Source of the DNA: a virus
Virus record (IMG/VR): IMGVR_UViG_3300032241_002251
Span: 1 to 25,524 of that record
Length of the DNA stretch: 25,524 bases
Direction: 5' to 3' (one strand)
The notes under the pieces: generated by a model
Seen by the model: the letters and a program-made list of their open reading frames with translations, nothing else
Told to the model about the DNA's origin: nothing
Databases searched by the model: none
Made by a program: the position numbers and the translations under genes
In this document: piece by piece, positions 1,228 through 21,156 of the stretch
Numbering within the stretch: position 1 is the first letter of the stretch
Layout of the letters: every line of letters starts with the position of its first letter

Positions 1228-1851
1228 ATGATGACCAACCCTTTTCATATCGACAACCTTGACCCCATCGGCAAGGCCGCTGTTTCGATCCTGAAGGGTG
1301 GTCCGGGCAGTGGCCGTCACCCCGAGGGGACTACGGTTCACCAGCCCAACTCATTTTTCTCGGGTGGCAAGCCATACACCACCACGAGAGATGGCGATTG
1401 GACGAAAATCAACTCCATTGAGCCAAGCAACCCAAATAGCACCCATGCTGTAAAGAACATTGAGGTTCATCCAACCGGCTTACTGAATATGGAAGTTAGG
1501 ACTTACGCCTACGGGAAGCAGATCAGTAGCGGGAGTTGGTACGAACCGCCGGAACGGGAAGAAGGCGAATGGGAAGGTGAGTTGGAGGACATCACGCCAC
1601 AAGATGTTTTGGACATGAACAACGATGTGGTTGGACGTGAAGCAAGTCTTAGTTTTCATCCCGACGGCTCTCCTGATGAGAATACCCGTTCGGTTTGGGT
1701 TGAGCATGACCTCCAAGACCCCATTTACTCACAGGGCGTTCAGGTTGGCGTGTACCAAGATGCGGTTGCAAACCTGCTTTTCGGTGGCGCAAAGTCAAAT
1801 GTTATTTCTAACCGAGTAGGAGAATACCTCGAAGGGCTTGACGACTACTAA
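1228..1851 (+). CDS. Tagged phage protein, FHIDxLDPIGK / GGPGSGRHP N-terminus, unknown cargo
   Basis: The first ~33 residues carry the tag shared with the genes at 18727 and 19588: PFHIDNLDPIGK, then ILKGGPGSGRHP. The rest (about residues 34-207) is unlike those two. It is acidic, has GGKPY, SGSWYEPPEREEGEWEGE and a C-terminal 'GVYQDAVANLLFGGAKSNVISNRVGEYLEGL' likely helical segment, and I recognise no family. Two ATGs in a row (1228, 1231) are possible; the second gives MTNPF, matching MTNSF in the paralog. A -10-like TATCCT ends six bases before the first ATG. The tag suggests this product shares a route (packaging, processing or export) with the other tagged proteins even though it is encoded about 13 kb or more from them. 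Confidence 0.7.
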   Translation: MMTNPFHIDNLDPIGKAAVSILKGGPGSGRHPEGTTVHQPNSFFSGGKPYTTTRDGDWTKINSIEPSNPNSTHAVKNIEVHPTGLLNMEVRTYAYGKQISSGSWYEPPEREEGEWEGELEDITPQDVLDMNNDVVGREASLSFHPDGSPDENTRSVWVEHDLQDPIYSQGVQVGVYQDAVANLLFGGAKSNVISNRVGEYLEGLDDY

Positions 1852-3273: not shown

Positions 3274-5847
<2,574 letters not shown>

Positions 5848-10072: not shown

Positions 10073-11251
10073 ATGTCGTCAGAACTGCTGTATTGGAACG
10101 CCGCCACGAGCACTTGGCAGTCTGTAGCCGCCGGACCACAAGGCGCAACGGGACCTACCGGACCCACGGGAGCGAAAGGCGACACGGGCGCAACCGGAGC
10201 AAGTGGAACCGGACCGACCGGAGCGCAGGGCGCAGCCGGTCCGCAAGGTAGTAGCGGAGCGTATTTCAGCGTTGGAACAACCCCTGCGCCTTCGACGACC
10301 GGCGTAATCTGGGTTCAGTCGTCCACATCGTCATCTTCGATCTACGGCTTTAGCCAAACGAACCCTCTGCCTGTTTCAGCGCAAAACGGTGGCTCACCTC
10401 CGACTATCTATGTGACCTCAACCGCAGGCATGAGCATCGGAAACTACATTTACGACACCACTCTTGGCATCGGAGCCACGATCACCGCAGTCAATACTGG
10501 CTCGGTCACTGTGGACTCCATCGCTTTTGCCCCTATCGGTGGGGATAACATTGTTACGGGAACATGGACGCAGGCAGTCGTCGGCGCACAAGGCGCAACG
10601 GGCGCAACGGGAGCCGCAGGCGGCAACGGAACCAACATCTCGCAGTTCCCTCTATCGAGCACGACGGCGATCCCACAGAAAGCGTTTTTGCCTTTTGGAA
10701 GCACCGCCGCAAGTGGGACGACGCTTCCGGACATGGATTACTCCATTATCAATAGCAGATATGCGGCAACTCGTGGCATCGGCTCCACTCCGGCTTCATC
10801 AACGAACGCTGTAATGATCGGGACGACCTATGCGGGTGTGTGGGGAGTTTTCACCCCAAATACAAGCCCGTGGTCGGGCTGGGTGGGCACCAACCGCCTA
10901 ACCGCTTACTACCGAGTGACCTTATTCCTCGCCACCACCTCATCGCAGTCCTACAACTTGGTTGTTGTGGCGGGTTCAAGCACGAGCAGCATCAACGCTG
11001 GTGGTTCAGGGACCGCATCGTCTTATGCGGCTCCTTCAGCGCACGCTTTCTGGCCGATTTCCCACAGTGGCATTGAGTCCACGCACCAAATCGTCGTCCC
11101 GCTACAAGCCGGAGAGCAGATCGGTGTCGCCAACTACGGTTCGACCTCCGCAAGTTTCATGAGTGCTGGAAACTGGACTGGGATACCCCCATCGACGGCT
11201 CAGGCATACTTGGGTTCCCACATCTCCTTCGAGTTGCTCGGCCTCGACTAA
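10073..11251 (+). CDS. Collagen-like fiber protein with C1q/TNF-like end
   Basis: The 392-residue protein opens with a short adaptor (SSELLYWNAATSTWQSVAA), then Gly-X-Y repeats at about residues 22-62, a beta domain, a short second repeat (about 173-186) and a C-terminal jelly-roll-like region of about 190 residues rich in Ser/Thr/Gly strands. The short-adaptor plus collagen plus globular-head plan is typical of phage fibers with C1q-like heads. GAGGTGGTG precedes the ATG. It is the last gene of the fiber operon. Confidence 0.75.
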   Translation: MSSELLYWNAATSTWQSVAAGPQGATGPTGPTGAKGDTGATGASGTGPTGAQGAAGPQGSSGAYFSVGTTPAPSTTGVIWVQSSTSSSSIYGFSQTNPLPVSAQNGGSPPTIYVTSTAGMSIGNYIYDTTLGIGATITAVNTGSVTVDSIAFAPIGGDNIVTGTWTQAVVGAQGATGATGAAGGNGTNISQFPLSSTTAIPQKAFLPFGSTAASGTTLPDMDYSIINSRYAATRGIGSTPASSTNAVMIGTTYAGVWGVFTPNTSPWSGWVGTNRLTAYYRVTLFLATTSSQSYNLVVVAGSSTSSINAGGSGTASSYAAPSAHAFWPISHSGIESTHQIVVPLQAGEQIGVANYGSTSASFMSAGNWTGIPPSTAQAYLGSHISFELLGLD

Positions 11252-11782: not shown

Positions 11783-11790
11783 AGTTGGTT

Positions 11791-14250
11791 ATGACCGAAC
11801 AACTGCTCGCACGGGCAATGCAGATCATCGGGGGGAACTGCGATGGGGCTGTAGAGCAAGACGGCGTTGGCTTCAACGGGCCAGATAGTAAGTCCGGTAA
11901 AGCCATCGCCGCCACTCCACCTGAAGCGTGGAGCGCAGGGGTGCAGCGCACCGCCTATGAGATGCTCAAAAAGTATCGCAGCCAACTCGCAGCAGCGGGC
12001 GTGGACTACGACGCTATTCCCGAGCCGCCACAGGTCAATGCCACCGGACTACGGGCTATTGACGTTCGCTCTGGCAAGGTGCTGGTATTCCTGCCCTACG
12101 GTGACCCTGCATACCCTAAGACCGCACTAGGGGCTGTTTGGAACCGTGACCTCAGAGGTTGGCAGGTTGCGGTGAGTAAGTATGGCTCAGTGCTGGAATG
12201 GGCACGCCGCAATGAGGTTCCGGTCAGCGACCGAGCACGGGCGATCCTCGAAGCCACGCCAAAGCCGAGCAAGCCGGATTACTCCGGTCATGTTGTCGTT
12301 GAGCGCAACGAAATCGTCATCAGGTTCGACTACAACCCAATGCTCGTAGATGCCGTTCGCTCCATTCCGGGGCGCAAGTGGGATAACGACGATAAGAGTT
12401 GGCGTGTTCCAAAAGATACGGTCAGCATTGTTCGCAAACTTGCGAGCGACTACAACCTATTCCTCACCGACGATGTGAAGCGACTGCCCGATGTAGAGGT
12501 GCATCTCGGACCGAAGGTGAGCGTCGTCGGCAATGACTTTGCGATCTCGTTCACCTACGATGCCGAACTCCTTACTGCGGTTCGCCAAATGCCGGGAGCA
12601 CGATGGGCACCGGGCACGAAGGCGTGGATCGTCCCCATTGAGAGCGCAGAGGAAGTCGTCAAGTTCGTCAAGCAGCACAACGCTCGCACCTCGCCAGAGG
12701 CAGACCGTTTGGTGCAGGAGAGCACGCTCCTCCAAGATGTAATCGACGCTAGCGCAGCCAAAGACGCTCAAATCCAAATCGCAGGGTTGGGCAACGGTCG
12801 CTATGAACTGTTCCCTTTCCAGCGTGCAGGCGTGGCGTATGCCCTCCGTTCGATGGGGTGGGAGCACAAGGCCGATGGCGTGTGGGAGCGCACCACAGAC
12901 ACCGGCGCAGGTGGCGTGCTGATCGGTGACGAGATGGGGTTGGGCAAGACGAGCCAAGGGCTTGCTGTCCTCCAAGCCACACAGTCGTTCCCTGCCGTCG
13001 TGGTCGTCCCTGCCAGCCTCAAACTCAACTGGGAGCGTGAGGTCGCCATGTGGCTACCGCCAGAACGCACCGTCAAGGTGCTGAACGGCACCAGCGGCAA
13101 CCTCCCCGATGCCGATGTGTATGTCGTGAACTTTGACGTTGCCCACTATTGGGCGGAGAAGTTCGTCAGCGTCAAGGGTTTGGTTGTGGACGAGAGCCAC
13201 TACATCAAGAACGGTCAAGCCCGACGCACGAAGGCGTGCATCGCCATTTCCGACAAGGTAGTTGCAGGCGGCGTTCGTGTCTGCCTGTCCGGCACCGCCA
13301 TCGTGAACCAGCCGCTCGAAATCATGACCCAACTCCGTGTGATCTACCGGCTCGATGAGTTGGGCGGAGCACGGTCGTTCCGCAGCACCTACGGTAAAGC
13401 ATCAGCACGCAGCCTCGCAGCACTGAACCGCAAACTGCGCTCTAAGTGCTATGTCCGACGCAGGAAGGCCGATGTTCTCACCGAACTACCTCCGAAGCGT
13501 TGGAGCAGCGTGATTGTCGAAGGCGATCCAGCCATCATGAAGGAATACAAAAAGGCCGAAGCAGATATCGTGAAGTATCTTTCGCAACTTGCGATGCAGT
13601 TTGCTTTGGAGTCCGGCGCAAGTTCAGAGGAAGCCCGCAAAGAGGCATGGATGAAGGCACTCCGAGCACGCTCAGCCGAGCACCTCGTCTCCATTTCCAC
13701 CCTGAAGCAAATCGCCGCCAGAGCCAAGATGAAGGTTGCAAAGCAGTGGGTTGAGGATTTCCTTACCACCGACAAGAAGTTGGTCGTGTTTGGTTGGCAC
13801 CGTGAGGTCGTGGATCAGATCGCCACCGACTTTGCCGATGGGGTCAAAATCCAAGGTGGCATCACCGCCGAGCGTCGCCAGCAAGCGGTGGACTTGTTCC
13901 AAAACTCCGACGGTCAAAAAGTTATCGCTTGCAACATCAAGGCAGCCGGAGTGGGACTAACCCTCACGGCAGCGAGCGATGTGCTGTTCATCGAACAGGG
14001 GTGGACACCATCAGACATGGAGCAGGGTGCCGACCGTTGCCACCGCATCGGTCAGAAAGACAGCGTGACCGCATGGCTCATGCTCACCGCCGATACCATC
14101 GACGAAGATATCGCAGCCCTTATTCAGGCGAAGCGCAACATCGTGGATCGTGCCATCGACGGCAGCGAGGACGAGGACGACGAGGAAGGCTCGATCATCG
14201 GCGAACTCATCGTGGGTCTTGCCGAGCGTGGTATGCGACAGGCTTTCTAG
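11791..14250 (+). CDS. SNF2-family helicase with HARP-like repeats (SMARCAL1-like)
   Basis: The 819-residue protein has an N-terminal domain (about 1-80), then three copies of a HARP-like unit at about 88-146, 166-223 and 241-298. The last two share the pattern VxFDYNxxLVxAVRxxPGxxW...KxWxVP. The motor follows: FPFQRAGVAYAL, Walker A GDEMGLGKT (about 379-387), DESH Walker B (about 466-469), SGTAIVN, and the C-terminal lobe with VLFIEQGWTPSDMEQGADRCHRIGQ. HARP domains in SMARCAL1 give annealing-helicase activity, rewinding single strands at forks. Phage SNF2 proteins are usually linked to replication or recombination. The start is at ATG 11791 behind a good promoter with almost no leader. The gene converges on the minus-strand block with a two-base gap. 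Confidence 0.9.
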   Translation: MTEQLLARAMQIIGGNCDGAVEQDGVGFNGPDSKSGKAIAATPPEAWSAGVQRTAYEMLKKYRSQLAAAGVDYDAIPEPPQVNATGLRAIDVRSGKVLVFLPYGDPAYPKTALGAVWNRDLRGWQVAVSKYGSVLEWARRNEVPVSDRARAILEATPKPSKPDYSGHVVVERNEIVIRFDYNPMLVDAVRSIPGRKWDNDDKSWRVPKDTVSIVRKLASDYNLFLTDDVKRLPDVEVHLGPKVSVVGNDFAISFTYDAELLTAVRQMPGARWAPGTKAWIVPIESAEEVVKFVKQHNARTSPEADRLVQESTLLQDVIDASAAKDAQIQIAGLGNGRYELFPFQRAGVAYALRSMGWEHKADGVWERTTDTGAGGVLIGDEMGLGKTSQGLAVLQATQSFPAVVVVPASLKLNWEREVAMWLPPERTVKVLNGTSGNLPDADVYVVNFDVAHYWAEKFVSVKGLVVDESHYIKNGQARRTKACIAISDKVVAGGVRVCLSGTAIVNQPLEIMTQLRVIYRLDELGGARSFRSTYGKASARSLAALNRKLRSKCYVRRRKADVLTELPPKRWSSVIVEGDPAIMKEYKKAEADIVKYLSQLAMQFALESGASSEEARKEAWMKALRARSAEHLVSISTLKQIAARAKMKVAKQWVEDFLTTDKKLVVFGWHREVVDQIATDFADGVKIQGGITAERRQQAVDLFQNSDGQKVIACNIKAAGVGLTLTAASDVLFIEQGWTPSDMEQGADRCHRIGQKDSVTAWLMLTADTIDEDIAALIQAKRNIVDRAIDGSEDEDDEEGSIIGELIVGLAERGMRQAF

Positions 14251-14252
14251 GG

Positions 14253-15794
14253 TTATTCGTCGATGTATTGGTTCCCATGAAAGTTGGGACCGTGCGGGTT
14301 GTTCTGCTGGTCATTCGTCGGCGCAGGACGACCACTATCGGTTGCTTGATACCTATTGCCCACTTGATAGCGTTGGGATGCCTCCATTTGTGCGGGTGCG
14401 CTCGGCTTATGGGGAGCATCGTCCTTTGGTGCTGAGGTCTTAGGCTTGGAGTTATCGCCCTTTGGCTTCTCGCTACTTGCGGGCTTGCGACCACCGCCGG
14501 TTGGCTTAGGCTGCTTTTCAGCAGTCTTTTTGTCGCCGCCACCCTGACGCTTCCCTCCGCTTGCCCCCTTTTTTTCCTCGGTTGCCCGCTTCTTCTCCTC
14601 GTCCTTGATCTTTTTTTCCTCGGCAGAACCCGGTTTGACGACATGGTAGGAGACGGGCTGAACCTTTTTGGAGTCGCCCGGAAGCCGCTTCGCTGGCTTG
14701 CTCGCCGTCATCGACGGCTTCAGGCTGTGAACGCTCGAACCCGGCTCACGGTAAGACGCTATGCGCTCCTTGCGCTCGGCGTTCTCCCTTGTGCGCTCCC
14801 TGACCTTCTCTTGGTGTTCCTTTGTGGTGAAAAGGTTGGCGAGCATGTGGAAGAAGCCCTTAGTCACTTCTTCACCTTCGGGGTAGTTGCTCAACGGTTC
14901 CAATAGGGTTTCTGTGCTGAAATCCGACTTAGCAACCTTGGTTTCGCTGACCTTCTCCGCAGCCTTGACCGCTTCGTCAGCACTCTTGCTCGCACGAGCC
15001 GCAGCGTCAGATGCCCACTTAGCGTTTCCGGGGTGAGGGTGGCGGTTCGCCTCCACGCCCTCGACTTTGGAGGTGTTGTAGGCGTTGTCCTCGTTCGTCC
15101 GACCAGCCGTGTAGTGCGCTTCCATAGCAGCACGGTGCATCACCGAGGCATGGTCGTAAGCCCGTGACTTTGGAGTGTCGCTCCCGTTTGCCTTTGCCCG
15201 TTCCACCTCAGCGAGGCGTTGGAGGGAGTCGGCGAAATCGTGATGGCGGACACCTAATCCAATGTGCGCTCCACCGATCCCCCGCCAGTCAACCGTTGCC
15301 GCCATGTGCTTTTTGGCGAGTTCCTCAGCCTCTTTGCCGTAAATGTCGTAGGGGTGCACCTTCGTCACCGGCTTTTCACCAGCCGCTTCGGTTGCCTGAA
15401 GCGCATCGTGGCTAAACCGAGCAGCAGCGACGGCGTAGGTCTTTGCCTTACTGCCCGTCAGGTCATTGGAAGCCACCGAGCCGCCGGAGACAGACATGAT
15501 GGACTCGATCTCGTCCGCAGCCGTGTCGTGAGCCTTCGCCGCCTTACGGTGAGCACTCGCAGCCAACTTTGCTCCCTCACGGCTCAGCATGGCAGCCAAC
15601 TTGCGGTGGTCTTTGGCGATCTCACGGTGCGTGTTGATGGCGGTAGTCAGCGGCGTGTCGTAGCGGAACCGCATTGAGTTCGCCTTCTCAGCGAGGGCGG
15701 AAGCCTTTTGCCACTCCGCACCCTTTGTCGCAACTTTGGAAACGGGATAGGCAGCAACTCTTTGGAGGAGTGCATCGGTGCTGAAATCAGACAT
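14253..15794 (-). CDS. Long tagged protein: two FST tags, helical bundle, disordered Lys-rich region, HGNQY end
   Basis: The 513-residue protein starts SDFSTDALLQRVAAYPVSK. A second copy of the tag appears inside at about 290-312 (SDFSTETLLEPLSNYP then EVTKG). The C-terminus ends PNFHGNQYIDE, a motif seen near the N-terminus of the protein at 17945. Residues 30-285 are Ala/His-rich helices with H-x6-H pairs at H56/H63, H82/H89 and H220/H227. Residues 385-500 are Lys/Pro/Gly-rich and surely disordered. The upstream tagged gene overlaps it by eight bases, with AGGA before the ATG, so the two form one minus-strand operon. Paired tags suggest two modules joined in one chain, perhaps separated by proteolysis. 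Biochemical function is unknown. Confidence 0.75.
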   Translation of the reverse strand: MSDFSTDALLQRVAAYPVSKVATKGAEWQKASALAEKANSMRFRYDTPLTTAINTHREIAKDHRKLAAMLSREGAKLAASAHRKAAKAHDTAADEIESIMSVSGGSVASNDLTGSKAKTYAVAAARFSHDALQATEAAGEKPVTKVHPYDIYGKEAEELAKKHMAATVDWRGIGGAHIGLGVRHHDFADSLQRLAEVERAKANGSDTPKSRAYDHASVMHRAAMEAHYTAGRTNEDNAYNTSKVEGVEANRHPHPGNAKWASDAAARASKSADEAVKAAEKVSETKVAKSDFSTETLLEPLSNYPEGEEVTKGFFHMLANLFTTKEHQEKVRERTRENAERKERIASYREPGSSVHSLKPSMTASKPAKRLPGDSKKVQPVSYHVVKPGSAEEKKIKDEEKKRATEEKKGASGGKRQGGGDKKTAEKQPKPTGGGRKPASSEKPKGDNSKPKTSAPKDDAPHKPSAPAQMEASQRYQVGNRYQATDSGRPAPTNDQQNNPHGPNFHGNQYIDE

Positions 15795-16455
15795 ACTCGG
15801 GTCCTATCGGTAGTTTGGCGATGGCCTGCATCTGTTCGAGCGACCAACTTGATGTGAAATCTGTGGGATCACCACTAATGGGGTGGTAGGACGGGGTGAG
15901 CGTCCTCCCGATGGCACGGTGGTAGCCGTAAGCGTCGTTTGTTGCCGAACTCACGACATTCGTGTTGCCAGCGACCCGTGCGATGTAGTGTTCCAAAGCA
16001 GTTGCGGTTCCCGGCACCTCACCCGTCGAACCCAACTCGGTAATGCGCCAATCCCGACCTTGCCGGTGTTGCACCGCCCCGATTACGCCGACGACATTCC
16101 CATTTCGGTCTAAAGCGACATACGCCTCACGACCCTTCTCCCTGCCGAGCATGGCGAGGTTGCGGCGGATCATCTGGCAACCCTCGGACTTCTCACCACC
16201 GACGCTGCCGATCTTGTTGAGCAGGTCTAAGCGTGCATCTTTGAGCGTCTTACCGTTAGGGAGTGTGGTTGCACCAGACTTCAGTTTGATGATTTTTCCA
16301 CCAGCAGCGTAGAACTTGTTGGCGTTCGTGGTGATGAAATCCGCAACTTCCGGCGAAATGGCCTCAGGGTGCCGCCCCGAGCCGGGTCCGCCCTTGGAAA
16401 CGGGATAGTTAGCGACACTCCGCAACAGATCGTCTGTCGAAAATGAGGTCGCCAT
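15787..16455 (-). CDS. Tagged protein with GNAT-like acetyltransferase domain
   Basis: The frame is open further upstream, but I choose the ATG giving MATSFSTDDLL because it begins the tag and lies seven bases after a TAGCAT -10 on this strand; product 222 residues. The tag runs into VSKGGPGSGRHPE (residues 19-31). The rest resembles the GNAT fold: EAYVALDRNGNVVGVIGAV (strands 2-3), WRITELGSTGEVPGTATALEHYIARVA (strand 4 and the acetyl-CoA loop plus helix) and VVSSATNDAYGYHRAIG (strand 5, helix 4). The acetyl-CoA loop is degenerate (EVPGTATAL rather than QxxGxG), so activity is uncertain. GNAT enzymes move acetyl groups from acetyl-CoA to amines. Confidence 0.6.
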   Translation of the reverse strand: MATSFSTDDLLRSVANYPVSKGGPGSGRHPEAISPEVADFITTNANKFYAAGGKIIKLKSGATTLPNGKTLKDARLDLLNKIGSVGGEKSEGCQMIRRNLAMLGREKGREAYVALDRNGNVVGVIGAVQHRQGRDWRITELGSTGEVPGTATALEHYIARVAGNTNVVSSATNDAYGYHRAIGRTLTPSYHPISGDPTDFTSSWSLEQMQAIAKLPIGPEYV

Positions 16456-16504
16456 GTGAACAATGCTACAACCGAACAGGTGAAATCTTGTTAGGCTTAG
16501 CAGC
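16456..16504. promoter_or_regulatory. Divergent promoter region
   Basis: This 49-base gap separates the minus-strand tagged operon from the ParB-like gene. On the minus strand TAGCAT (complement of 16463-16468) lies seven bases before ATG 16455. On the plus strand TAGGCT (16492-16497) lies seven bases before ATG 16505. Both imply leaderless mRNAs. The -35 elements are poor (ACAACC on plus), so an activator may be needed. Confidence 0.45.
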
Positions 16505-17713
16505 ATGAACATCAACGTCAAGGCTGAAAATGTTGCCATCGACAGCATCAAGCCACACCTCAACAACCCCCGTCTGGGCGATGTGGCGGCTATCGCTGAG
16601 TCCTTAGAGGTCAACGGTCAATACAGCCCTGTCGTGGTTTGGAACGACACGATTATCGCCGGAACCCACACTTGGAAGGCGGCTAAGAGCCTCGGTTGGG
16701 ACAGCATCGCCATCACACGCTTCGACGGCAGCGAAGATGACGCACTTCGCATTTTGATTACCGACAATCGCACGAGCGATATTGCAACCTACAACAATGA
16801 CCTGCTCCTCGACCTCCTGCGATCCCTGCCCGACCTCGATGGAACGGGCTACGAACTTGCCGACCTCGACGACCTCGACGGATTACACAGCGCATCAGGC
16901 GGCGTAACGGAGACGACCCTGCTCGATGACGACCCCGTAGATGACCTCAACCCGCCCGTCACGATCCGTTTCGGCGACTTCTTCGGGCAACTTGACCCCA
17001 CGCTGCACGAAATCTGGCTCACCAGCCTCCAAGAAGCCGTGGGCGACAAGAAGGCCAAGATCAACAAGGAACTTCGGAGCCGCCTTGACCTGCCCGATAA
17101 TCCAAAAGTCGAGCGCAAGGAACCAGCGGCTAAGTCCACCGCCACCTCGCAAAAGGTCACGATGGTAGAAACCAGCCTCGTGCCCCTGTCGGAACTGAAG
17201 CGGTATCCGAGCAACCCCCGTGAGGGAGACATTGGAGCCATCAGCGAGAGCCTGCGGGTGCTCGGACAGTATCGCCCCATCGTGGTCAATAGCCGCAATA
17301 ACCAAATCCTGAAGGGCAACCACACCGCCGCCGCCGCATCAGCACTCGGTTGGAGTGAAATCGCCGTCGTGTGGGTAGATGTGACCGACGACGAAGCCGC
17401 CAAGATCGTCCTCGCCGACAACCGTATTGCCGATAAGGCGACCTACGACGACGACATGCTTGTTGCCACCATCGCTAAGTTGGACAGTTTGGAAGGCTCA
17501 GGCTTCGACGCTGAGGATTTCGCCGATCTCCGAGCCGGTAAGAGCAGCCAACAAGGCGAGAAGGCCAAGAAGGTCAAGTTCCAAGTGGGCGAATACGGCT
17601 TTTCAGCACCCGAAAGCGTCTATGAACAATGGCTGACCGAAACTTTGGTCCCAGACGAAGCCCTGCACCGCCTCGGGCTGCCACTCACGGCACTTTTGAG
17701 GGAAACGGAATAG
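16505..17713 (+). CDS. Tandem ParB-like nuclease-domain protein
   Basis: The 402-residue product has two ParB/sulfiredoxin-type domains. Copy one (about 7-125): IKPHLNNPRLGDVAAIAESL, GQYSPVVV, IIAGTHTWKAAKSLGW and LITDNRTSD. Copy two (about 230-350): LKRYPSNPREGDIGAISESL, GQYRPIVV, ILKGNHTAAAASALGW and VLADNRIAD. The GTHT/GNHT motifs replace the GxRR of chromosome-partition ParB. After each domain comes a weakly similar 'PTLHEIWLTSL' or 'PESVYEQWLTETL' tail, so the whole roughly 200-residue unit seems duplicated. ParB-like phage proteins bind or nick DNA, and some have CTP-dependent clamp activity; which applies is unknown. No ParA is nearby, so a partition role is not supported. Confidence 0.8.
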   Translation: MNINVKAENVAIDSIKPHLNNPRLGDVAAIAESLEVNGQYSPVVVWNDTIIAGTHTWKAAKSLGWDSIAITRFDGSEDDALRILITDNRTSDIATYNNDLLLDLLRSLPDLDGTGYELADLDDLDGLHSASGGVTETTLLDDDPVDDLNPPVTIRFGDFFGQLDPTLHEIWLTSLQEAVGDKKAKINKELRSRLDLPDNPKVERKEPAAKSTATSQKVTMVETSLVPLSELKRYPSNPREGDIGAISESLRVLGQYRPIVVNSRNNQILKGNHTAAAASALGWSEIAVVWVDVTDDEAAKIVLADNRIADKATYDDDMLVATIAKLDSLEGSGFDAEDFADLRAGKSSQQGEKAKKVKFQVGEYGFSAPESVYEQWLTETLVPDEALHRLGLPLTALLRETE

Positions 17714-17723
17714 ACTGTCCCCT

Positions 17724-17942
17724 ATGGGGAAACCAAACACCGCCGTCATTCTGGCTACGCCGCTGGCCTATCCAAAGCCGAGTAAGGCGTTGTCCGAGGT
17801 TGTTACATCCCTGCCGCCCGAAAAGATGCGTGATTTCTACGCTGCGCTCTACCAAACGACGAGCAAGCATGGCGAAATGGCAACGGTCGGCGACCTGCCA
17901 CCCACGCTGCAAGCAGCCGTGATCGCCAACTACCCCGTATAG
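17724..17942 (+). CDS. Small unknown protein
   Basis: The 72-residue product (MGKPNTAVILATPLAYPKPSKALSE then LPPEKMRDFYAALYQTTSKHG) has one or two predicted helices and matches no family I know. TAGACT (17711-17716) ends seven bases before the ATG, suggesting its own leaderless start, though no -35 is evident. It sits two bases upstream of the tagged ADP-ribosyltransferase-like gene and ends ANYPV, so the two may be co-expressed. Confidence 0.55.
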   Translation: MGKPNTAVILATPLAYPKPSKALSEVVTSLPPEKMRDFYAALYQTTSKHGEMATVGDLPPTLQAAVIANYPV

Positions 17943-17944
17943 CC

Positions 17945-18667
17945 ATGCCAGATTTCAGCACCGAGTCGCTGCTCTACCCCTTGACCAAAGGCGAGTTCCA
18001 CGGCAACCAGTATGTCGAGGTTCCAACCGAAGGGGAAACGCCCACACCGAGGCCGCCGGTTGGACAGTTCCAACTCACCCCCGATGAAATGAGATCGCTC
18101 GCCAGAGAACTCAGTGAGGCCGTCGGACAGAACGCAGCGCAGGATTTGTGCGCCGTCAAGATTTCCAAAATGCTTGGGTTGGACAAACCGGCTACCGAGG
18201 TCACCGAGCCGCTGAACAGACCACCAGACCTTCTTCGTGGCTGTGACCCGCAGGGCGCAGAAACCCTCCTCCGACCATTGGAACACTACGGCAACGGCGG
18301 TGGGTCAGCCTACGGCAACGGGATTTATACGGCGCATAGCAGGCCGGTCGCAGAGCAGTATGTCGAAGGTGCGATGGTGCAAATGTGGCTCAATCCCGGA
18401 GCGAAGATCGCAGAGGGGGACATGGCAAAGCCATTTGAGCAATATGAACGCATCATGCGGGCTTTCAGCGAGGAACGGCGTTCCGGTCATGGAGGTATGT
18501 CGGTTGACGACGCTGTGGCGTTAGGGCGTTTTATGGAGCAGCCAGCCAACTTTGCACTTTCCTGCGGCTACCAAGGCTGGAAAGGTGCCCACACGGTCAT
18601 CTTTGACCGCTCGGCACTGACCATCAGGATTGAGAAGCGTCAGCGCAACAAAGATTTCTCCTACTGA
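17945..18667 (+). CDS. Tagged ADP-ribosyltransferase-like protein
   Basis: The 240-residue protein begins PDFSTESLLYPLTKGEFHGNQYVEV, joining the FST tag to the FHGNQY motif. After a Pro-rich linker and a helical domain (44-88) comes an ADP-ribosyltransferase-like pattern: DLLRGCD (Arg98, the NAD-contacting first motif), GSAYGNGIYTAHSRPVAEQYV (middle STS-like position, about 120-140) and a later strand-rich region ending VIFDRSALTIRIE. Some phage ADP-ribosyltransferases, such as the T4 Alt and Mod group, modify host RNA polymerase or other targets, and some enter with the DNA. A clear catalytic Glu (R-S-E third motif) is not obvious, so activity is unproven. The tag supports virion delivery only as an inference. 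Confidence 0.65.
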   Translation: MPDFSTESLLYPLTKGEFHGNQYVEVPTEGETPTPRPPVGQFQLTPDEMRSLARELSEAVGQNAAQDLCAVKISKMLGLDKPATEVTEPLNRPPDLLRGCDPQGAETLLRPLEHYGNGGGSAYGNGIYTAHSRPVAEQYVEGAMVQMWLNPGAKIAEGDMAKPFEQYERIMRAFSEERRSGHGGMSVDDAVALGRFMEQPANFALSCGYQGWKGAHTVIFDRSALTIRIEKRQRNKDFSY

Positions 18668-18697
18668 GCATAAGACGGGAAAACGAGCAAGTCGTAG

Positions 18698-18720
18698 TAG
18701 CATTTCCCTAGCGGAAAGGA
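18698..18720 (+). promoter_or_regulatory. -10-like element and ribosome site before tagged gene
   Basis: TAGCAT (18698-18703) resembles the other -10 boxes, without a clear -35. GGAAAGGA (18713-18720) is a strong ribosome-binding site six bases before ATG 18727, so this gene is not leaderless, unlike several others. Confidence 0.4.
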
Positions 18721-18726
18721 CTTCTC

Positions 18727-18816
18727 ATGACAAACTCATTTCACATCGACGATCTTGACCCGATCGGCAAGTCGGCCTCAAACATTCTGAAGGGTGGACC
18801 GGGTTCGGGTCGCCAC
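18727..18816 (+). repeat. Tag-coding direct repeat, copy A
   Basis: The first 90 bases of this gene align closely, in frame, with 19588-19677; most differences are at third positions. A more diverged copy starts at 1228. The repeat ends where the protein sequences diverge, so the tag behaves as a mobile or recombining 5' cassette. Confidence 0.75.
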
Positions 18817-19557
18817 CCCGGCGGGTTGAGCGTTGGCGACAAGAACTCCCGTGACCACTACCAAACCGTGATTATGCGGGCATCTAACTTGGCGCACGAT
18901 GCCGATAGCCACAAGGACGTGGCGCAACTCCACCGCAACGCTACGATCAACTTGCTTCAGCAAGCAACGAAGGCATCGCAGACGGGCGACGCAGCGAAAC
19001 TCAAAGCAGTTTCCGAAGCCATCAACCAACACCTGCTCGCAGCAAACGCTCACGAGGAAGCGGCGGAACACTTTGCGGCTGGAAAGAGCAGCAGCGATTG
19101 GAAGCACACCTTGGCGCAGCGGGCTAGCGACTATGCCGATCTGGCAACCCGACGCATTGACGAGGACGACGACACGGTGGGCAAGTCCTCCGTTGTGAAG
19201 GGTGGAGAAGGCTCAGGCCGTCACCCGTTCAGCGAATACGTCTCGCTCAGCAACCAAGCCTCAGAAGCCACGAAACTCGGCGACCACGTTCGAGGTGGAA
19301 AGCCCGACCACTTTGAGGCTTCCCGTCACCACCAGCGCATCGCTCGTGCCCTCGAAGATGGTGTGAAGATGATCGACGGTGCTCGTGGCGTGTCTCGCCT
19401 CCGGTCGTCTTTCGAGAAGGGTGCGCAGGCTCACCGTGACGCTGCCGCCGCACACCTCGCCGTCATGAGTGGATCGGGTGACGAGCGAACCGCACAACTC
19501 ATGACCGAAAAGGCCGAGAAGGCTTCCATGAAGGCTGACGACCTCAACTACTCTTGA
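18727..19557 (+). CDS. Tagged two-module helical protein
   Basis: The 276-residue protein starts with the class-one tag (SFHIDDLDPIGK, ILKGGPGSGRHP). Residues 40-147 are an Ala-rich helical module (AANAHEEAAEHFAAG). At 156-167 VVKGGEGSGRHP repeats the second half of the tag, and a second helical module (168-276) follows with AQAHRDAAAAHLAV. Both modules look like small bundles and the second half may be a duplicated unit. His spacing (H236/H243) matches that in other tagged proteins. The repeated GSGRHP at a domain border would suit a protease site, but no cleavage is shown. Function is unknown. Confidence 0.7.
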   Translation: MTNSFHIDDLDPIGKSASNILKGGPGSGRHPGGLSVGDKNSRDHYQTVIMRASNLAHDADSHKDVAQLHRNATINLLQQATKASQTGDAAKLKAVSEAINQHLLAANAHEEAAEHFAAGKSSSDWKHTLAQRASDYADLATRRIDEDDDTVGKSSVVKGGEGSGRHPFSEYVSLSNQASEATKLGDHVRGGKPDHFEASRHHQRIARALEDGVKMIDGARGVSRLRSSFEKGAQAHRDAAAAHLAVMSGSGDERTAQLMTEKAEKASMKADDLNYS

Positions 19558-19587
19558 ACCACCCACCTGTGGAAGATTGGAAATCCC

Positions 19588-19677
19588 ATGAACGACTCAT
19601 TTCACATCGACAGCCTTGATCCCATTGGCAAGTCAGCCTCAAACATTCTGAAGGGTGGGCCGGGTTCGGGTCGTCAT
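19588..19677 (+). repeat. Tag-coding direct repeat, copy B
   Basis: Partner of 18727-18816. A 20-base core around CAGCCTCAAACATTCTGAAG is nearly unchanged between the two copies. Confidence 0.75.
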
Positions 19678-20130
19678 GCCGCAGAGGGCCATTACGCCGC
19701 TCTTGCCACCAATCCTTACATCAACACGGACACCGATCGTAGTGATGGCGGGGCATCTCTCGCTGCGTGGATGCTGGCAAGACACGCCGCCGACATGCAT
19801 CAGGGCGGCGCTACGGGGGAGCCTGTCGCTAGAGCGCACAAGGCTGCGGCATTTGAGCACCGAATCGCCCAACAAGTCATCAACAACGCCCTTGAAAAAG
19901 AAGATGATCTCGTCAAGCGGGGGCAGATGAAAGCGGCGATTTATGCTCACCGCCAAGCAGAACAAACTCACACCTACGCTGCCGCCGCTGAAAACGAAAG
20001 ATTTCCCAATAGTCCCATTACACGGGATACCAGCATGATGGCTGCTGGCATGAGTCTTCTGGCCAACGACCTGACCCACAACGCAGGTGTAGACCTTGGC
20101 GATGAGTTCCCTGCTTCAGAGGTCCGATGA
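19588..20130 (+). CDS. Tagged Ala/His-rich helical protein
   Basis: The 180-residue protein has the class-one tag (SFHIDSLDPIGK, then KGGPGSGRHAAEG). The cargo is a predicted helical bundle with H84/H91 (AHKAAAFEH) and H121/H128 (AHRQAEQTH), the same H-x6-H pattern as in the proteins at 18727 and 14253. No enzymatic motif is visible. A purine-rich GGAAGATTGGAAA lies before the start, and the stop overlaps the next micro-ORF (ATGATGA). It is probably co-transcribed with 18727 and likely a distant paralog of its helical modules. Confidence 0.7.
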   Translation: MNDSFHIDSLDPIGKSASNILKGGPGSGRHAAEGHYAALATNPYINTDTDRSDGGASLAAWMLARHAADMHQGGATGEPVARAHKAAAFEHRIAQQVINNALEKEDDLVKRGQMKAAIYAHRQAEQTHTYAAAAENERFPNSPITRDTSMMAAGMSLLANDLTHNAGVDLGDEFPASEVR

Positions 20131-20183
20131 TGAGCAACCCTTTTCGCACTCAGGAACTACTGAAATCCCCATTCGCCAGTTGA
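20127..20183 (+). CDS. Micro-ORF that is almost only a tag
   Basis: An 18-residue frame reads MMSNPFRTQELLKSPFAS. It resembles the FST-type tag (compare MSDFSTDALL) but ends in a stop where the cargo would begin. It overlaps the previous stop by ATGA and the next gene begins two bases after its own stop, so ribosomes would pass through it. It may be a remnant of a tagged gene that lost its cargo, or a functional small peptide. The start could be 20127 or 20130. Confidence 0.45.
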   Translation: MMSNPFRTQELLKSPFAS

Positions 20184-20184
20184 G

Positions 20185-20403
20185 ATGACCCAATGGTGGT
20201 CGTGGTGTCTAGACGGCCTCGGGCTGACCTGCACCTACCTCGTTGGTAGAAAGTTCTGGTGGGGTTGGCTCTGCTATCAGGGCTACAACGCCGTGTGGAT
20301 TACTTACGCCATCACCACTCGGCAGTGGGGCTTCCTGCCCGGCTGCATCGTCTACGCCACCCTCAACCACAAGAACATGAGGGCGTGGCGCAAAGACACT
20401 TGA
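20185..20403 (+). CDS. Small Trp-rich membrane protein
   Basis: This 72-residue protein is rich in Trp and Tyr, with two predicted membrane segments (about residues 8-33 and 35-58) and a basic C-terminal tail (NHKNMRAWRKDT). Small two-helix proteins of this type are common in actinophages, and some are holins. The Trp-rich, non-charged character does not distinguish a holin from another membrane factor, and no endolysin lies beside it. Confidence 0.6.
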   Translation: MTQWWSWCLDGLGLTCTYLVGRKFWWGWLCYQGYNAVWITYAITTRQWGFLPGCIVYATLNHKNMRAWRKDT

Positions 20404-20429
20404 CGGGGGTTCATGCCACCTGCTAGGTT
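20400..20429 (+). promoter_or_regulatory. Leaderless promoter TTGACG-18-TAGGTT
   Basis: TTGACG (20400-20405), 18 bases, TAGGTT (20424-20429), then six bases to ATG 20436. The -35 overlaps the stop codon of the membrane-protein gene. It probably drives the small-gene operon that follows. Confidence 0.75.
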
Positions 20430-20435
20430 GTCGCC

Positions 20436-20831
20436 ATGAGTGACTTTGACCACTTGGTTCCCGACCAAGCCTTACTCAATGAAGTCTGGGAAGCCGCCAA
20501 ACTCCTAGGCTACCTCACCATGCGGGTAGATGAAATGCTCGCCAAGCGGTGCAAGTTGGAGAAGGAAGCGATCAGTCGCCGCCTCGCCTACGACGAAGCA
20601 GAACTCATGCGCCAAATGGTGCAGAACGAAGTGTCGCTAGAGGACTACGCCGAGAAAAGCGTTCAGCGGCTCCGCATCCACATCGACGCTTACGGTGAAA
20701 TAGATGCCGCCCACAAAAACAACTCCAACCGGTTCAAGCAGACCGTTCAGGATAAGTTGGAGGAAGGCAAACTCAACGCCGTGATCTCGTTCACCATTGA
20801 CGACTTAGAGGGGAACCCCAATGCCGATTAG
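20436..20831 (+). CDS. Helical protein of unknown function
   Basis: The protein has 131 residues, almost all helical (VWEAAKLLGYLTMRVDEMLAKR, DEAELMRQMVQNEVSLEDYAEK). Its N-terminal VWEAAK segment shares an exact 19-base DNA match with the gene at 22024. It begins directly behind a leaderless promoter and is the first gene of an operon. It overlaps the next gene by 11 bases. No known family is recognised. Confidence 0.65.
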   Translation: MSDFDHLVPDQALLNEVWEAAKLLGYLTMRVDEMLAKRCKLEKEAISRRLAYDEAELMRQMVQNEVSLEDYAEKSVQRLRIHIDAYGEIDAAHKNNSNRFKQTVQDKLEEGKLNAVISFTIDDLEGNPNAD

Positions 20832-21156
20832 CGAACAGTTCCTCGCCCAAGCCGAACGCAAAGAGGAGAACCTGCAACAGTTCGCTAGGGAAATCTCCGA
20901 GGCAACCAACCTGACCCACGGCGAGAAGGTTATCCAAATCCTGTTCGCCCACTACGCCTTTCAGTCCGAGATCACGGAGTTGGTCGCTGCACTCGGACCA
21001 GACGAAGCCACCGTCGAACTCCGCAGCATCATCTACGGCGGTTTCACCGCACTCAACAATGTCGTAGCCACCATTCAGGCAAACGGACTCCTTCCAGCCC
21101 TTATGGACGGGAGCAAAGTCGAGCCTGTAGCACTTGACCAAGGGAGCGAAGCGTGA
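20821..21156 (+). CDS. Helical protein of unknown function
   Basis: The protein has 111 residues. The sequence is helical (SEQFLAQAERKEENLQQFAREISE, VIQILFAHYAFQSEITELVAALG) with a C-terminal acidic tail. GAGGGGAA sits before the ATG, inside the preceding gene. The stop overlaps the next GTG. I see no catalytic motif; it could be a small adapter partnering the gene at 20436. Confidence 0.65.
   Translation: MPISEQFLAQAERKEENLQQFAREISEATNLTHGEKVIQILFAHYAFQSEITELVAALGPDEATVELRSIIYGGFTALNNVVATIQANGLLPALMDGSKVEPVALDQGSEA

Follow-up and report, generated by a model that had tools for sequence, protein, structure and literature searches.

The window analysed here is a 25,524-base IMG/VR fragment (record IMGVR_UViG_3300032241_002251, positions 1 to 25,524), and it encodes a series of proteins in which short related peptides stand in front of unrelated domains, here called cargo. 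Six genes and an 18-codon micro-open reading frame (micro-ORF) are, as the initial annotation had reported, open frames with these peptides. The genes at 1228, 18727 and 19588 (+) begin with class-one leads, FHIDxLDPIGK(S/A)xxIL, and those at 15794 and 16455 (-) and 17945 (+) with class-two leads, F(S/T)TDxLLxxYPVS(K). Leads are about 14-22 amino acids (aa) long, stand on unrelated cargo and also occupy internal and C-terminal positions. In most of the genes the lead runs into a second peptide, the tag, in the form GGPGSGRHP or FHGNQY, as had been described, but gene 14253-15794 departs from this scheme in having no GGPGSG after its N-terminal lead and FHGNQY at its C-terminus. The features are as follows, with arrows marking predicted cuts.

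1228..1851, +: tagged gene with class-one lead MMTNPFHIDNLDPIGKAAVSIL, then K↓GGPGSGRHPEG and a cargo domain without assigned identity
1294..1329, +: dialect A tag KGGPGSGRHPEG of this gene, predicted cut I-L-K↓GG
14253..15794, -: two-unit protein of 513 aa (N-terminal class-two lead, helical unit, internal lead, unit 2, C-terminal FHGNQYIDE)
14265..14282, -: FHGNQY at the C-terminus of the 513-aa protein, a partial dialect C motif
14859..14927, -: internal lead SDFSTETLLEPLSNYPEGEEVTK (KVAKSDFSTETLLEPLSNYP) of the 513-aa protein, between V-A-K↓S and V-T-K↓G, both of which match the predicted cut consensus
15787..16455, -: tagged GNAT-fold acetyltransferase-like protein (lead MATSFSTDDLLRSVANYPVS, K↓GGPGSGRHP, cargo)
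16366..16395, -: dialect A tag KGGPGSGRHP, predicted cut V-S-K↓GG
17945..18667, +: tagged ADP-ribosyltransferase (ART)-like protein (lead MPDFSTESLLYPLT, K↓GEFHGNQY, cargo with conserved YRGC...GxGxY)
18727..19557, +: two-unit helical protein (class-one lead, K↓GGPGSGRHP tag, unit 1, tag 2, unit 2)
19201..19227, +: internal tag GGEGSGRHP (GKSSVVKGGEGSGRHP) of gene 18727, preceded by V-V-K, with V-G-K↓S shortly upstream
19588..20130, +: tagged helical protein (class-one lead, K↓GGPGSGRHA, cargo)
20127..20183, +: lead-only micro-ORF MMSNPFRTQELLKSPFAS, whose start overlaps the stop of the 19588 gene

Among the loci examined, this was the one convincing ORF that consists of a lead alone. The micro-ORF is possibly the remnant of a lost cargo cassette; homology to the sister contig G004 picks up again at 20186, just past it. 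No window cargo had a convincing Pfam match, PADLOC gave no clear matches, and neither a head gene nor the MuF domain (PF04233) was found in the window.

The tag pattern matched four times in the window, 35 times in G001 (113.7 kb) and 20 times in G003 (25.5 kb), two relatives obtained from IMG/VR pattern scans in each of which the tags lie on one strand. The reversed-pattern control gave no match in any of them, and the tags are thus not due to chance. The initial annotation had treated the peptides as a single tag family; the peptides are indeed shared, but two separate elements had been merged, namely lineage-specific leads and a widespread tag with interchangeable dialects. Dialect A is KGGPGSGRHP. 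Dialect C is KGDVPGHEFHGNQYT, with the pattern KGDVPGHEFHGNQ(Y/W)T, of which K-GEFHGNQY in the window is a shortened form. Dialect B, from other phages, is GGPGSGNFGHAGRPG, with the pattern GG(P/E)GSGNFGHxGRPGxxGGS, and hybrids such as GGPGSGAQPGHPFNGNQYT combine A and C. The leads of the window also precede dialect C tags but never dialect B tags, which indicates that the leads are lineage-specific and the tag core is shared. One dialect predominates at each locus (97% majority vs 63% when shuffled).

A viral pattern scan gave at least 120 matches to dialect B and more than 120 IMG/VR loci with dialect C, and among the matches listed 197 of 198 dialect C tags lay in open frames. Across 257 Gb of bacterial and archaeal genomes, the dialect C pattern had four matches, one of them in frame. 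The latter (L295:3343-5028) belongs to an ART-like protein on a 12.7-kb contig of an Armatimonadota metagenome-assembled genome, and this contig is itself probably viral. Judging from these scans, dialect C is practically virus-only and the tags are essentially absent from cellular genomes; equal frequency in non-phage proteins, the observation that the initial annotation had singled out as speaking against its proposal, was looked for and not seen. Relatives carry up to 38 tags, and the 38 that a regular expression found in one relative have 37 distinct coding sequences between them, with Ser codons of both families, which points to selection on the peptide. A DNA-level repeat or recombination sequence was ruled out, given that 37 of the 38 copies differ in DNA.

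A tblastn search with the short tag against 50,697 phage records returned no match, although low-complexity filtering may mask matches. Likewise, no tag was matched in the stretches read of 13 isolates reached via a protease, MuF, DUF2213 or zinc-finger region (Laroye, Ottawa, ValentiniPuff, DalanDe, GMA6, BS162P1, MMB025, Zooman, StAshley, vsMR, Dulem 37, BlindUri1 and ZQG1). Neither the tag strings nor a description of the concept was found in the open-access papers searched; subscription papers and preprints lay outside that search, and an earlier description may exist.

The proteins behind the tag are highly diverse. An alignment of 105 dereplicated tagged viral proteins (A1) had a mean identity of 4% and was nearly invariant in the tag only. 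Pfam assigned MuF to nine of them, ART-PolyVal to five, ADP-ribosyltransferase exoenzyme and 2'-5' RNA ligase/2H to four each, portal to 3 + 3, Zeta toxin to three, DUF2213 and topoisomerase IB to two each, and Acb1 and GNAT to one each, besides others; PHROGs identified a portal in 12 tagged proteins and a head maturation protease in 10. The tag lies between a head domain and an effector, after a head domain or before an effector, as illustrated by L200 (portal 72-395, tag 532, 2H/Acb1 706-825), L126 (MuF 106-207, tag 220), L168 (DUF2213 119-246, tag 294) and L116 (tag 282, Zeta 417-566). G001 encodes 1005-aa and 1222-aa proteins that contain GNAT and ART-like units, and a further G001 protein (L032:7885-9618) has a pentapeptide-repeat cargo, possibly of a DNA-mimic-like fold, behind a class-two lead and a tag. 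When all tagged ORFs were split at the tags into 776 units, 33 clusters of homologous units occurred with more than one dialect and 40 in both N-terminal and internal positions, and many unit alignments started a few residues past the tag.

Exchange of cargo was also evident between phages that are 95-97% identical in DNA. Gene 1228 is homologous to the relatives L005/L010 (96-97% identical DNA) until 1329, the end of the tag, and again from 1842; in between, L005/L010 have another cargo behind the same lead and tag. Homology to G004 breaks at 18803, within the tag of gene 18727, and ends at 14948, some six codons ahead of the K-S/lead junction inside gene 14253-15794, where the ORF of G004 has a length of only 284 aa.

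Three cargoes of the window were compared further. The AlphaFold2 model of the 15787-16455 protein had a predicted local distance difference test score (pLDDT) of 84, with residues 1-29, comprising the lead and the tag, below 50; the fold begins directly after the tag, and the lead and tag are disordered. The protein matched a GNAT fold in the PDB (E 6e-7), and the cargo is, on the basis of this model, a GNAT fold. It is 62.5% identical to the third (internal) unit of the 1005-aa G001 polyprotein and 42% identical to a dialect C protein. Homologs of the 17945-18667 protein (35-39% identity) and of the 19588-20130 cargo (42-46%) likewise sit behind dialect C tags, either N-terminally or internally. 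The RGC and GxGxY motifs are conserved in the 17945-18667 protein; because it had no Pfam hit and a poor structure model (pLDDT 36), its putative ART identity rests on the motifs and the context of its homologs.

In the relatives, the tags are linked to head genes. In G001, proteins as long as 1222 aa have tags at one joint after another, six of them in one protein, and most of the G001 tags form three blocks. The central block is located between the portal (81672-83339) and XkdF-like head protease (80008-81519) genes and those for the scaffold and major capsid protein (59489-62060), and G003 has the same gene order. The distance from a tag to the nearest portal or MuF gene had a median of 1.0 kb vs 12 kb in a rotation null (0/5000), and portal, MuF and maturation-protease proteins carry tags themselves. 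Together with the near-absence of tags from cellular genomes, these results bear out the shared, head-related handling that had been proposed for the tagged proteins. The Arthrobacter phages Laroye and Ottawa and the Microbacterium phage ValentiniPuff have a related protease (51-66% identity) and head genes with zero tags, which suggests that the tagged cargo is an add-on. Protease identity of 58-66% to Arthrobacter phages makes an actinobacterial host probable for the tagged freshwater phages.

Several features of these head regions were noted in passing. The XkdF/S78_2-type head protease is encoded at L036:8-1519 (G001 80008-81519, with the S78_2 domain at 80068-80430) and L048:13353-14474 (Laroye gp18); Laroye-like forms are labelled RNA ligase or aldolase in GenBank, and their C-terminal domain matches head maturation proteases. 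A Dps/ferritin-like DNA-binding protein (phrog_3636; L035:17243-17698, G001 77243-77698) lies within the tagged head module. Tagged proteins at L035:13888-15096 (G001) and L196:7653-8957 contain a CxxC zinc region, which in Gordonia DalanDe and Alicyclobacillus MMB025 is part of the head maturation protease directly upstream of the capsid gene.

The residues preceding the tag co-vary with the head-protease family. In K-type tags of dialects A and C, the third residue before the predicted cut (P3) was V/I/L/F in 98%. In 11 contigs with a Peptidase_S78_2/XkdF protease, which cover dialects A (G001, G003), C (G039, G047, G052, G056) and B (G045), 127 tag matches had K as the residue immediately before the cut (P1) in 117 cases and V/I/L/F at P3 in 115, the non-K matches including hybrids counted in a second register. 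In 10 contigs with a DUF2213 protease, P1 was never K; in nine of them the sites read [RK]-x-[LA]↓G with dialect B (G012, G016, G019) or C (G042, G044, G051), or x-x-D↓GG (G014, G021, G023). P3-P1 thus follow the protease family regardless of dialect (contig-level Fisher test, 2.8e-6, naive in that kinship is ignored). A universal Lys at P1 was ruled out, since in dialects B and C this position is frequently occupied by L, D, R, N or A. Peptidase_S78 (PF04586) was rare in these contigs.

Similar sites occur in the head proteins. LRAA↓GG directly follows the DUF2213 domain in G016, and HRAA/MRML or PRTA occupies this position in G012, G019, G042, G044 and G051. Four S78_2 domains are followed by [hydrophobic]-x-K (VYLVK↓S, FSIHK, FNVQK and FEVMK). 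The scaffold N-terminus VDHPAHLHEGWVVMK↓SS also suits the consensus, with VVMK↓SS in G001 and VVCK↓SA in Laroye. K-dialect tagged proteins were enriched in [VILF]-x-K↓S at other positions (0.315 vs 0.231, p 1e-5), and no such enrichment was found in B-only tagged proteins. Taken together, these patterns are the trace that cleavage immediately ahead of the tag would leave. The leads resemble short targeting propeptides with predicted cut sites at their borders, I-G-K↓S and I-L-K↓G in class one.

We therefore consider it likely that the tag starts right after a cut site of the head-maturation protease, and that removal of the lead and splitting of polyproteins would free effectors packed in the head; in our best reading these include GNAT, ADP-ribosyltransferase, Zeta and anti-CBASS proteins. 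Cargo would be made as a precursor in which a lead peptide, site, tag and domain follow one another, as a chain of domains joined by sites and tags, or as a portal, MuF or protease protein with a site, tag and effector behind it. It would enter the prohead via the lead peptide or via its fusion to a head protein. The protease would cut after P1, which is Lys in the phage family of the window ([VILF]-x-K↓G), and each domain would be set free with the glycine-rich tag as a flexible N-terminus. The freed domains would then exit the head together with the DNA and target the host. What the sequences show are conservation and positions of the tag, swaps at the tag, linkage to head genes, restriction to viruses and co-variation of P3/P1 with the protease; from these we infer cleavage itself, entry into the capsid, presence in the virion, ejection or injection, and the role of leads as targeting propeptides. 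Among capsid loading, injection with the DNA and cleavage by the maturation protease, the three options raised initially, the last has the strongest support, since the residues in front of the tag vary with the protease family; tags at polyprotein joints, and those that separate an effector domain from a portal, MuF or protease domain, also count toward it.

Several points weigh against cleavage before the tag. The contigs compared include close ones, so that the independent sample is perhaps 6 vs 6 and the true weight of the co-variation is smaller than the Fisher value of 2.8e-6 suggests. One DUF2213 contig (G024) has H/N at P1 and matches neither consensus, and most dialect B contigs have no assigned protease. 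Some tagged genes of G001 are tens of kb from head genes, as those of the window probably are; the window itself has no protease gene, and the protease of its phage is taken from the relatives. The support comes from sequence. Finally, conservation extends for 8-20 residues beyond the predicted cut, in phages with different proteases alike, which cleavage alone leaves unexplained.

This last point is accounted for if the tag has a dual function, being cut off from what precedes it and then serving at the new N-terminus as a signal, for example for release or for passage through the portal and tail. Such a function extends cleavage before the tag rather than replacing it, so that the probabilities of the two overlap. 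The P side varies with the protease while the P' side is conserved across protease families, which favours this extension, but it has no known partner, and A, B and C differ strongly, with A retaining GGxGSG only; we regard it as rather unlikely. Conservation past the predicted cut in unrelated phages, together with the coherence of dialects per locus, would also suit a docking or loading signal read by the scaffold, portal or shell in an uncleaved protein. This is improbable, since a single signal per chain would be enough and polyproteins have up to six, since fusions to portal or MuF need no signal to reach the head yet are tagged between the head domain and the effector, and since the variable P1/P3 that track the protease are left unexplained. 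A flexible, recombination-friendly linker for domain shuffling that is never cut would fit the Gly-rich tag, its disorder in the GNAT model, the DNA breakpoints at or near tags between close relatives and the pervasive shuffling of domains, but it is the least probable, as the tag also stands at N-termini where no linker is needed, its P3 and P1 preferences follow the protease across dialects, and its diverse DNA holds no conserved recombination sequence.

Building on cleavage before the tag, we tentatively suggest, with less than even confidence, a phage-wide cargo code: a swappable cut-and-release tag, the upstream half of which would be read by the protease and the downstream half kept on the cargo as a conserved signal, by which unrelated phages would trade ready-made cassettes of injected effectors, dozens of which could be loaded per virion. 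If these proposals are true, a simple peptide search would list the head-carried, cell-released proteins of thousands of uncultivated phages and give access to a large reservoir of effectors for anti-defence and takeover, most of them unannotated, with Zeta, ART, 2H/anti-CBASS Acb1 and GNAT already among the tagged proteins. Two protease families would also gain cleavage specificities that can be tested, and a tag for loading phage heads with cargo would be at hand.

Several other genes of the window have counterparts in G001. An HslV-like peptidase (2413-2910, +; phrog_1040, E 8e-14) is syntenic with G001 20397-20882; it was considered as a candidate processing enzyme, but DUF2213 and S78_2 account better for P1. 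A gene with two ParB_N-type stretches (16505-17713, +; phrog_8071, E 2e-84) lies among the tagged genes and has a homolog nearby in G001 (14325-15515), and an 821-aa SNF2/HARP-type helicase (11785-14250, +) has a syntenic counterpart at G001 16989-19475. Tail-fibre-like genes with collagen-like GXT/GXQ repeats are located at 3274-5847 and 10073-11251 (+).

Several known systems resemble the one described here. One is the capsid targeting sequence (CTS) of phage T4, a short N-terminal peptide on Alt and internal head proteins that is removed in head maturation by the prohead protease gp21 (PMC5694885, PMC9024508). Both systems have a short N-terminal peptide common to unrelated cargo and a protease-type motif at its end. 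Unlike the T4 CTS, the present element also occurs internally and between polyprotein domains, has several dialects and is found in many phages, where the accompanying protease is of the S78_2 or DUF2213 type. The substrate motif of T4 gp21 ends in Glu, which is not the case here, P1 being K, L, A or D. By analogy, the tag system would act like the T4 CTS without being a member of it. In SPN3US and phiKZ, a single prohead protease recognises a short motif in many inner head and ejection proteins and removes their propeptides, for which a targeting role has been proposed (PMC5694885, PMC10052503); those propeptides are long (mostly >100 residues), their motif ends in E, and no conserved tag downstream of the cut is described. 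The N-terminal 30 residues of P1 DarB are enough to load foreign cargo into the head, and no shared sequence was found among the Dar proteins (PMC9024508), whereas the present tag is common to dozens of cargoes.

In polyvalent proteins and in fusions of effectors to MuF or portal, one phage protein combines several domains (ART, GNAT, 2H and RNase), and packaging and injection are predicted for these proteins (Iyer 2017, PMC5512222; PMC3482391). The 1005-aa and 1222-aa proteins of G001 resemble them in having several unrelated enzymatic domains per polypeptide and a virion gene context. Release of polyvalent proteins is ascribed mainly to embedded metallopeptidases, with assemblin-like peptidases in a few, and no mention of a linker or low-complexity sequence turned up when their description was searched (PMC5512222). 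Unlike polyvalent proteins, of which about 36% have a metallopeptidase, the window proteins and G001 polyproteins have no embedded metallopeptidase, nor any other peptidase, by Pfam. MuF, the vehicle of MuF-delivered effectors, is absent from the window genes and present in 9 of the 105 tagged proteins elsewhere. The head-maturation protease of HK97 cuts gp5 at K103/S104 (PMC10275583), and this delta-domain cleavage likewise has Lys followed by a small residue, although its substrate is the capsid protein itself and not a cargo repertoire. As judged by these comparisons, the tag system appears distinct from the known ones in that one modular tag is reused at N-termini and joints, in several dialects and in many phages.

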